From Candidatus Bathyarchaeia archaeon (lineage in GTDB: Archaea > Thermoproteota > Bathyarchaeia > Hecatellales > Hecatellaceae): a stretch of DNA of 64,000 bases. A program made the position numbers and the translations under genes. The stretch is from positions 73,242-137,241 of the forward strand of contig JAVZMI010000002.1 of NCBI GenBank assembly GCA_038883335.1, written 5' to 3'. Each line of letters begins with the position of its first letter. Within the stretch, counting starts at the first letter, position 1. Under the pieces are notes generated by a model. The model saw nothing but the letters and a program-made list of their open reading frames with translations, was not told where the DNA came from and made no database searches. Positions 30,311-33,082 of the stretch are shown one piece after another.

Positions 30311-30376
30311 AGTAATACTTTTTAGGAGTGTAGTAATATTTATATAAGTAATACTATTACACATGAAAGTATTACG
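30311..30376. promoter_or_regulatory. Operator array of four AGTAATACT boxes over the cbiM promoter
   Basis: AGTAATACT at 30311-30319, AGTAATATT at 30332-30340, AGTAATACT at 30347-30355, and an inverted copy AGTATTACG at 30368-30376. Boxes 1-2 and 3-4 are each 21 bases apart, two helical turns. The TATA box TTTATATAA (30339-30347) is flanked and partly covered. This is a probable binding array for a metal-responsive repressor of the importer operon. Confidence 0.75.
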
Positions 30377-30385
30377 TGATGGGTT

Positions 30386-31060
30386 ATGCATATTCCAGAC
30401 GGTTTCCTAGATCCATCCACCTGCGCAGCCACCTATATCGCAACTCTCCCATTCTGGATTCTAGCATTCCGAAGGGCTAAAAATGTGCTTAGCGACAAAC
30501 AAGTCCCACTGTTAGCTACCTTGACTGCCATGTTCTTCGCTGCACAGATGATGAACTACCCCATTGTTGGGGGGACCACCGCCCACCTGCTGGGCGGTCC
30601 CATAGTAGCCATAACTCTAGGCCCCTATGCTGGGGTGATTTCTATGACATTAATACTTTTAATCCAAGCGTTAATGTTCGGAGATGGAGGAATAACCACT
30701 TTTGGAGCTAATGTCTTGAACATGGGTGTTGTCGGTGTCTTCGTCCCATACGTAATATTCTTACTAGTTAAGAGGGTAGCGGGAGGTAGGGCTGGCCTAT
30801 TGGCAGGGAGCTTCTTAGGCGCCTTCTTTGGTGACCTCTTAGCTGCGGTCTCCGCCGGCTTTGAGTTGGGCCTCTCGACGCTCTACTTCCCTTACAGTCT
30901 CTCTATAGCCGTCACGGCGATGGCGGCCCACCACTCTATAATCGGGGTTGTTGAAGGTATAGCTACGGTAGCCATCCTATCGGCTCTCATGAAGGCTAGA
31001 CACGACCTCCTACAACTACCAAAAGTTGAACCTGTATGGTTCCGGGGGTTATCTAGATGA
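30386..31060 (+). CDS. cbiM: Cobalt/nickel ECF transporter substrate-binding subunit CbiM
   Basis: A 224-residue membrane protein that captures Co2+ or Ni2+. The N-terminal MHIPDGFLD carries the Met1-His2 metal site of the family, and about seven membrane helices follow. GGTTAHLLGGPIVAITLGPYAG (about 66-86) is the conserved metal-binding region. It is the first gene of a cbiM-PDGLE-cbiQ-cbiO operon. Whether the ion is Co or Ni cannot be told; Ni would suit a CO dehydrogenase and Co its corrinoid partner. Confidence 0.93.
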   Translation: MHIPDGFLDPSTCAATYIATLPFWILAFRRAKNVLSDKQVPLLATLTAMFFAAQMMNYPIVGGTTAHLLGGPIVAITLGPYAGVISMTLILLIQALMFGDGGITTFGANVLNMGVVGVFVPYVIFLLVKRVAGGRAGLLAGSFLGAFFGDLLAAVSAGFELGLSTLYFPYSLSIAVTAMAAHHSIIGVVEGIATVAILSALMKARHDLLQLPKVEPVWFRGLSR

Positions 31061-31338
31061 GTGAAGGTAGAGGGATGTTTATAGTCGGCATATTGGCATC
31101 TATTATCTTTGTAGTTACCGGTTGCGTATGGTTATCCGTCTCAGCTGAGACGTTAGATGTTGTCGCCGAGTATTTTGGGGCTGAGGACGTAGCCCTCTGG
31201 ACGCCTCCGATCCCCGACTACGAGATACCTGGGTTTGAGGGTGTGGTCACGGTTAACATCCTCTTGGGCATAGCCTCTACAATTCTAGTTCTGGCTGTCA
31301 CGTTGGGAGTAGGTAGGGTTTTGAGGGTGAAGAAGTAA
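31057..31338 (+). CDS. PDGLE/CbiN-like small transporter subunit
   Basis: A 93-residue protein with two membrane helices (about 7-28 and 65-85) joined by an external loop containing YFGAEDVALWTPPIPDYEIPGF. The loop fits the PDGLE domain that is found fused to CbiM or as a separate protein and replaces CbiN. It overlaps cbiM by four bases (ATGA). Confidence 0.85.
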   Translation: MSEGRGMFIVGILASIIFVVTGCVWLSVSAETLDVVAEYFGAEDVALWTPPIPDYEIPGFEGVVTVNILLGIASTILVLAVTLGVGRVLRVKK

Positions 31339-31362: not shown

Positions 31363-32181
31363 ATGCCAGTGCTTAGTGAGTTAGTAAAGGCAGCCGGGGA
31401 CTTAGTGTTCCTTGAGCGCTTCCAGAGTGCAGGCGGGATTCTCCAACGGATAGACCCTCGGATAAAGCTTATCTCGCTCACCACTTTAGTGGTTGTGGCG
31501 GTCTCCCTGAAGACCATAGCTCCGTTGTCTATTCTATTCATAATGATCCTTCTACTCGCCACAGCCTCAAAGACCCCCATTAGATTCTTCCTCTATAGGG
31601 CAACTTTCTTCATCCCAATCTTCGCCGGGGTGATCTCTCTACCGTTGCCCTTCATAACTCCCGGAGCAAAACTACTATCGGTCAGTTGCATAGGTTATTC
31701 TTTAGCAGTAACGAACGAAGGAGTTTATAGAGCCATCTTGTTCACTTTTAGGGTTTGGGTCTGTGTTGCAGCTATGACCTTGCTGATTATGACTACACGG
31801 TTCTCAGCGATTATTAGTGCGATGGAGCGATTGAAGTTTCCAAAAATCTTCACACTGATGTTAGCTATTACCTACAGGTATATTCATGTCTTCATTGATG
31901 AGACACACCGAATGCTCCTCGCCATGGATTCCCGTTCAGCTGGGAAGATGAACCGTCTACAGGCTTTGAAGGCGCTCGCACACACTACTGAGGCGTTGTT
32001 TATAAGAGCCTATGAGCGGGGAGAGAGGGTTTATGGGGCTATGGTGGCGCGGGGATATACAGGCGATGCAAGGTATATAGGTGAGGTGAGGTGTTCTCTT
32101 CAAGACTGGGCGTTTGGGGTTCTATCAGCCTCAGTCTTTATTGGGGCGGCAATAGTCCAACTTTACGCTGGCGGTGTGTAA
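31363..32181 (+). CDS. cbiQ: ECF transporter transmembrane subunit CbiQ
   Basis: A 272-residue membrane protein that couples the ATPase to CbiM. It begins with a cytoplasmic amphipathic region (RIDPRIKLISL), then five or six membrane helices. The two conserved coupling motifs are AMDSRSAG (about 184-191) and YGAMVARGY (about 223-231). It overlaps the cbiO gene by eight bases. Confidence 0.92.
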   Translation: MPVLSELVKAAGDLVFLERFQSAGGILQRIDPRIKLISLTTLVVVAVSLKTIAPLSILFIMILLLATASKTPIRFFLYRATFFIPIFAGVISLPLPFITPGAKLLSVSCIGYSLAVTNEGVYRAILFTFRVWVCVAAMTLLIMTTRFSAIISAMERLKFPKIFTLMLAITYRYIHVFIDETHRMLLAMDSRSAGKMNRLQALKALAHTTEALFIRAYERGERVYGAMVARGYTGDARYIGEVRCSLQDWAFGVLSASVFIGAAIVQLYAGGV

Positions 32182-33082
32182 AGTGACTATTGAAGTAGCA
32201 GTCGAGATGGAAGACGTGGAGTACTTGTACCCTGACGGCTGTAGGGCACTTAAAGGCGTAAGCTTAAGAGTGCTTAGAGGGGAGCGGGTTGCTATCTTGG
32301 GACCTAATGGAGCTGGCAAATCTACCCTCTTAATGCACATTAATGGCATCTTCAAACCTATGAAAGGCTGGGTGAAGGTTCTTGGGATGACGATTGATGG
32401 CTCCAAACTGCGGGATGTCAGAAGGAAAGTGGGATTCGTGTTCCAAGACCCAAACGACCAACTATTCTGTCCTACCCTCTGGGAGGATGTCACTTTTGGC
32501 CCAATAAATATGGGGCTACCCGCTAATGAGGCAACCGGTATTGCGGAGGAAGCCCTGAAGGCGGTTAGGTTAGACGGTTACAGGGACAATGCGCCACATC
32601 ACCTCAGCCTGGGGGAGAAGAAACGGGCGGCGATCGCTACGGCTCTGGCCATGAAACCGGAGATTCTGGTCCTCGATGAGCCTACCGCTAACTTGGATCC
32701 TGAAAGCCGGAGGGAGCTTGTAGTACTCCTTAACCGCCTGCACGCAGAATGGAAGTTAACACTCATAGTAGCTACACATGACGTGAACTTGGTCCCAAAA
32801 ATTGCCGACAGGATCTACGTGATAAGCGGCGGATTGATAGTAGCTGAGGGGCCAATGAGGGATATCCTCTCAAACGCCAAGGTAATGGAGGAGGCACACC
32901 TCGAATTGCCAATAATAACTCAACTCTTCAACCTAATCTATGAGACTGGAATACCTGGGGACGGGCAGGTAACCCCGCAAACTCTCCCACTAACAGTCGA
33001 GGAAGCCCTCCAAGAGATGAAGCGTCTTCTTAGTAAAACACTGAACCAAAGAAGTGCGAATAGCCAGATCGAGAGATGTTAG
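32174..33082 (+). CDS. cbiO: ECF transporter ATP-binding subunit CbiO
   Basis: A 302-residue ABC ATPase. Walker A GPNGAGKST (about 46-54), signature LSLGEKKR (about 146-153) and Walker B EILVLDEPT (about 164-172) are all intact. The C-terminal 60 residues, after AKVMEEAHLELPIITQLF, are the extension typical of Co/Ni CbiO. The start is a GTG inside the end of cbiQ. It drives uptake of Co or Ni ions. Confidence 0.94.
   Translation: MCKVTIEVAVEMEDVEYLYPDGCRALKGVSLRVLRGERVAILGPNGAGKSTLLMHINGIFKPMKGWVKVLGMTIDGSKLRDVRRKVGFVFQDPNDQLFCPTLWEDVTFGPINMGLPANEATGIAEEALKAVRLDGYRDNAPHHLSLGEKKRAAIATALAMKPEILVLDEPTANLDPESRRELVVLLNRLHAEWKLTLIVATHDVNLVPKIADRIYVISGGLIVAEGPMRDILSNAKVMEEAHLELPIITQLFNLIYETGIPGDGQVTPQTLPLTVEEALQEMKRLLSKTLNQRSANSQIERC

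Follow-up and report, generated by a model that had tools for sequence, protein, structure and literature searches.

The DNA analysed here, referred to as the window, is a stretch of 64,000 nucleotides from the genome of a Candidatus Bathyarchaeia archaeon (1,224,167 bases). Starting with an ATG at position 30386, it contains an operon in which the CbiM, CbiQ and CbiO subunits of a CbiMNQO/NikMNQO ECF importer are encoded together; Nik/CbiMNQO is the most widespread nickel/cobalt transporter in archaea (PMC2667541). The promoter region and the operon comprise the following features:

30312..30339, strand not applicable: NikR-type operator A, GTAATAC-N14-GTAATAT, with one mismatch to the consensus, directly adjoining the upstream edge of the TATA box
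30333..30360, strand not applicable: overlapping alternative pairing GTAATAT-N14-CTATTAC, with two mismatches to the consensus
30340..30347, plus strand: TATA-box-like element TTATATAA, which fills the 8-bp gap between the operators and presumably functions as TATA box
30348..30375, strand not applicable: NikR-type operator B, GTAATAC-N14-GTATTAC, with a perfect inverted repeat of 8+8 bp
30386..31060, plus strand: cbiM/nikM, substrate-specific membrane subunit of the ECF nickel/cobalt importer (PF01891, E 3.5e-61)
31057..31338, plus strand: probable cbiN/nikN-like small subunit, assigned by its position and by NCBIfam CbiN matches that are weak (1.5e-05 at best) and stay below the cut-off; no Pfam match was obtained for the product
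31363..32181, plus strand: cbiQ/nikQ, ECF transmembrane subunit (PF02361, E 4.4e-39)
32174..33082, plus strand: cbiO/nikO, ECF ATPase (PF00005, E 1.2e-31)

A first-pass annotation of the promoter had described four 9-base boxes, namely AGTAATACT at 30311-30319 and again at 30347-30355, AGTAATATT at 30332-30340, and an inverted copy at 30368-30376 which matches at 8 of 9 bases. Re-reading of the sequence confirmed these positions and the spacing of 21 bases between the starts of each pair (30311 to 30332 and 30347 to 30368), and it revealed a fifth half-copy, CTATTAC at 30354-30360, which had been overlooked. Read as 7-mers, the four boxes form two 28-bp elements with the consensus GTAWTAC-N14-GTAWTAC, and the 21-base spacing is that of the half-sites within one operator (7 + N14). 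Each element has the architecture of a NikR operator, that is, two half-sites within 27-28 bp at an N13/14 spacing of the 7-mers. GTAWTAC and its reverse complement are identical except for the central base, and the boxes at 30311 and 30347, which are nearly self-palindromic, also match the opposite strand with one mismatch. Because each 7-mer is almost its own palindrome, the distinction between direct and inverted copies has little meaning, and the mixture of both in the first-pass annotation reflects this nearly undefined orientation. The boxes had also been placed on one face of the helix, which holds within each pair (21 bp) but not across all four, since the two operators lie 36 bp apart. 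Operator B is expected to cover the transcription start of cbiM. The alternative pairing is probably a side effect of the internal palindrome at 30348-30360; it was not seen among the other promoters of cbiM orthologues compared.

A single box carries little information in this genome. Its exact form occurs 14 times, compared to 18 times for the reversed control, and with one mismatch allowed, it is present 28 times in the window (26.6 expected), so that a genome scan with the single box was rejected as a probe for the regulon. Random frequency, named beforehand as an argument against a regulatory function, is therefore a property of the single box but not of the paired 28-bp form: exact GTAWTAC-N14-GTAWTAC is present once in the 1.22-Mb genome, as operator B (reversed control 0 at 0 mismatches), and within one mismatch twice, both times at this promoter. 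Looser searches yielded noise, with 90 places at three mismatches (control 146) and, for GTAATA-N16-TATTAC at two mismatches, 37 places (control 46).

Conservation was analysed in 61 genomes of the class, including the one studied here. A CbiM match was found in 16 of them, and the genes fall into a group of 14 close cbiM orthologues (L032-L045, which include that of the window) and a group of five distant paralogues (L046-L050). A half-site pair at 20/21 bp with at most two mismatches is located upstream of all 14 orthologues and of none of the five paralogues; in 500 composition shuffles of the 14 upstream regions, on average 0.16 and at most two carried such a pair. The comparison with homologous cbiM promoters supports the earlier idea that the promoter of the cbiM-type importer carries phased operator sites for a repressor, the paired form being both non-random and conserved. 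The letters of the half-site were picked after some of the promoters had been seen, but the spacing was left free and therefore serves as an internal control: when spacings from 8 to 45 were scanned, 12 of the orthologues had a pair at 21, three at 20 and at most two at any other spacing. For 80 loci of the genome_contigs set, at least four of which are records already contained in the 14 (L081, L084, L086, L138), the numbers were 20 at 21 bp, five each at 20 and 22 bp, and at most three elsewhere. A site at 20/21 bp was listed for 26 of these loci and none for the remaining 54, showing that the operator is not universal. Judged by eye, orthologues with a single site carry it either just upstream (L041-L045) or just downstream (L033-L038) of a TATA-like element. 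The window promoter has both sites and the TATA-like element between them, and TTATAT is likewise bracketed by two operators in L086 (a record of L039), L087, L089 and L040, with gaps of 9, 10, 9 and 15 bp, respectively.

The genome encodes a NikR protein on contig C17 (PF08753, E 1.2e-25; NCBIfam nickel responsive regulator NF002169, above the cut-off). In the alignment, it has His, His, His and Cys at the nickel-ligand positions, which we take to be the known nickel ligands of NikR proteins. The nikR gene is not adjacent to cbiM in this genome; in 4 of the 14 orthologue loci (G008, G009, G014, G052), nikR lies next to cbiM in divergent orientation, with a common operator region, and the NikR proteins encoded there keep the four ligands. 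NikR is present in 13 of the 14 orthologue genomes, the exception being G023, which is 58% complete. The promoter of the C17 nikR gene contains a perfect 28-bp palindrome of the 7-N14-7 type, GTATTAA-N14-TTAATAC, in which the end base of each half differs, giving two mismatches to the cbiM consensus; this region is common to nikR and a divergently oriented gene for an FmdE-domain protein (L001:820-1233). The type of half-site also covaries with the DNA-contact strand of NikR in the 25 genomes for which both data were available (Fisher p 0.0024, a value that ignores the relatedness of the genomes and is based on one NikR per genome, with four genomes left out). NikR proteins with RxS/CxS (Ser/Cys) were accompanied exclusively by GTAWTAC-type half-sites in 13 of 15 genomes, and those with RxGx (Gly) by a GTGTTAC/GTAACAC-type half-site in 8 of 10; the exceptions are G024, G026, G048 and G052. 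A second, divergent NikR-like protein, in which an RHH domain is combined with the C-terminal domain of NikR, is encoded on contig C3, where its gene is oriented divergently from a ZIP transporter gene (L002:1498-1878 and 1977-2831).

Based on these sequence comparisons, the boxes very probably represent two tandem nickel-responsive NikR operators, which flank the TATA box of the cbiM(nikM)NQO operon and would mediate its nickel-dependent repression. The sites with their spacing and conservation, the NikR genes and their linkage are established by the sequence data; binding by NikR, its dependence on nickel, the repression, and a cargo of nickel instead of cobalt are inferred. NikR as the regulator makes nickel the probable metal of an importer whose family models carry cobalt in their names, and the operators presumably belong to the promoter of an operon for nickel import, cbiM-N-Q-O.

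The E. coli NikR protein is a tetramer with two ribbon-helix-helix domains, each ribbon-helix-helix dimer binding one half-site. When nickel is plentiful, a nickel-loaded NikR tetramer would occupy each 28-bp operator, with one ribbon-helix-helix dimer on each 7-bp half-site and two helical turns between the two. Quasi-palindromic half-sites in either orientation would make sense, since each dimer is two-fold symmetric. Occupancy of operator A would block access to the DNA immediately before the TATA box, and occupancy of operator B access to the start region, so that, as we propose, initiation stops. When nickel is scarce, NikR would leave the DNA and the importer would be made.

Among the alternatives, binding of the boxes by the NikR-like protein from C3, in place of the C17 NikR or alongside it, is the likeliest but still improbable. 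The protein has the two domains named above, and a NikR homologue encoded beside ZnuABC/ZupT in Methanothermobacter was suggested to be possibly zinc-responsive (PMC3087415). In the alignments, however, one metal ligand of the C3 protein is Arg instead of His, the promoter of its gene revealed no 7-N13/14-7 site, and the regulator next to cbiM in 4 of the 14 relatives is a NikR with the complete ligand set; the C3 protein is possibly a sensor of zinc or another metal. The first-pass annotation had suggested an undescribed cobalt or nickel regulator, taken up here as one for cobalt or corrinoids, and cobalt can be the cargo of CbiM-type importers. This view has become very unlikely: the genome has a nikR gene of its own, relatives show linkage of NikR and cbiM, and the geometry, the sequence and the nickel-related regulon fit NikR. 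Upstream of the five distant CbiM paralogues (32-34% identity), the box is missing and other palindromes are present. TTAAC-N4-GTTAA-like palindromes are shared by these promoters and TTGGAT...ATCCAA-like ones occur in some; they are possibly the site of a different regulator, perhaps one for cobalt or B12. A chance cluster of AT-rich words, finally, would agree with the background frequency of single boxes but is contradicted so clearly by the 14/14 conservation (shuffle maximum 2) and by 24 exact pairs versus none for the control in the 61 genomes that we regard it as scarcely conceivable.

The predicted NikR operator also provides access to a probable regulon, as had been anticipated for the element. 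The 24 exact occurrences of the 28-bp pattern are distributed over 20 of the 61 genomes and are mostly located before metal genes; 20 of these places were read (the window and L161-L179), the remaining four being without a locus. The motif is followed by cbiM in five cases (window, L169, L170, L176, L178), by nikR in four (L173-L176), by a metal ABC transporter in four (ZnuA in L164 and an ABC ATPase in L173 by Pfam; L166 and L171 by eye), by a P-loop ATPase read as CooC-like in L165, by an FmdE-domain protein in L162, and by an orphan membrane protein in five (L168, L174, L175, L177, L179). No metal gene was recognised behind the motif in L161, L163, L167 and L172. The ABC transporters in L164, L166, L171 and L173 are ZnuABC-like and located directly behind the exact NikR-type operators; that of L173 is divergent from nikR, with hypA alongside. 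In the genome studied here, the sites outside reading frames are those in the cbiM promoter and the common nikR/fmdE promoter only; three other sites with two mismatches were dropped from the regulon because they are located within open reading frames. The archaeon needs nickel, since its genome encodes CdhA of CODH; the genome scan with the consensus listed no site just upstream of cdhA.

The orphan membrane protein of about 180 amino acids is encoded in 19 of the 61 genomes of the class (L180-L198) and absent from the one studied here. For all 19 genes, the upstream listing contains a half-site pair at 21 bp, and under a stricter rule (at most one mismatch per half), 18 of the 19 had it at 21 bp and at most two at any other spacing. 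Within 1.5 kb, NikR is encoded in 7, FmdE in 10, HypA in 3 and CbiQ/CbiO in none of the 19 loci. Among 300 genomes drawn from the phylum, 35 had an orphan match; of 22 new loci, 14 carried the pair, in each case at 21 bp (no other spacing exceeded one), comprising 5 of 7 within and 9 of 15 outside the class, and FmdE and NikR were found within 1.5 kb in 14 and 8 of the 22, respectively. The family is also represented in L168, L174, L175, L177, L179 and L213-L238. An alignment of 17 of the 19 sequences (two near-identical copies were omitted) has 14 invariant columns, including Pro28, Pro37, Cys40, Asp41 and His154. Searches with three orphans in Pfam and four in NCBIfam gave no relative (in Pfam, none over the cut-off), there was none at a meaningful E-value in the PDB, and a profile comparison with CbiM revealed no convincing similarity (probability 3.8). 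The idea that the orphan replaces cbiM was rejected, since the orphan is present in 19 of the 61 genomes and a close cbiM orthologue in 14, with four genomes having both. An in-frame TGA noted in three orphan genes proved to be the terminal stop. Given the NikR-type operator before its genes and the frequent proximity of NikR or FmdE, the orphan protein is a candidate nickel transporter. We give an even chance to the broader proposal that the NikR-controlled orphan family and the FmdE-domain proteins constitute an unrecognised system for nickel uptake or handling in this phylum, in which nickel is likely to be bound by the invariant Cys, Asp and His, and that repression by archaeal NikR relies on a TATA box enclosed by two operators. 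The motif predicts the nickel regulon of uncultured archaea of the Bathyarchaeota class, for which the literature searched holds no earlier description, and marks the orphan protein and the FmdE-domain proteins as predicted nickel genes.

In the literature on NikR together with Bathyarchaeota or FmdE, a search that mostly did not extend to subscription papers, no description of these sites was found. A paper by Rodionov from 2006 in J Bacteriol is said to be the likeliest place for archaeal NikR sites and may contain an earlier description. The closest solved relative of the C17 NikR is the protein from Pyrococcus horikoshii (PDB 2bj1; E 4.2e-28, residues 6-132). The E. coli NikR operator, given as GTATGA-N16-TCATAC (PMC7055735), has the same total length of 28 bp, and GTAATA-N16-TATTAC fits this frame exactly twice in the window, but the half-site sequence and the type of importer, NikABCDE in E. 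coli, are different. A much closer counterpart is the NikR signal of delta-proteobacteria, GTGTTAC-N13/14-GTAACAC, described as a 27-28-bp inverted repeat upstream of nikMNQO, which in D. psychrophila has its half-sites reversed to GTAACAC-N13/14-GTGTTAC (Rodionov et al. 2004, PMC545781). The likeness in half-site and 7-N14-7 layout runs counter to the earlier statement that the boxes do not resemble a NikR operator. Both the published signal and the sites of this class consist of paired half-sites in 27-28 bp with N13/14 before nik(MN)QO importers, and both orientations occur, L038 and L085 carrying the GTAACAC-N13/14-GTGTTAC order exactly. GTAWTAC is one base away from GTGTTAC/GTAACAC, and both kinds are present at homologous promoters of the class and even within the single genome G035. 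The sites described here differ from the delta-proteobacterial signal in one base per half, and in that an archaeal TATA promoter is involved in which two operators are placed around the TATA box. Since the signal has been published for delta-proteobacterial NikR, our finding represents a well-conserved case of a known kind.
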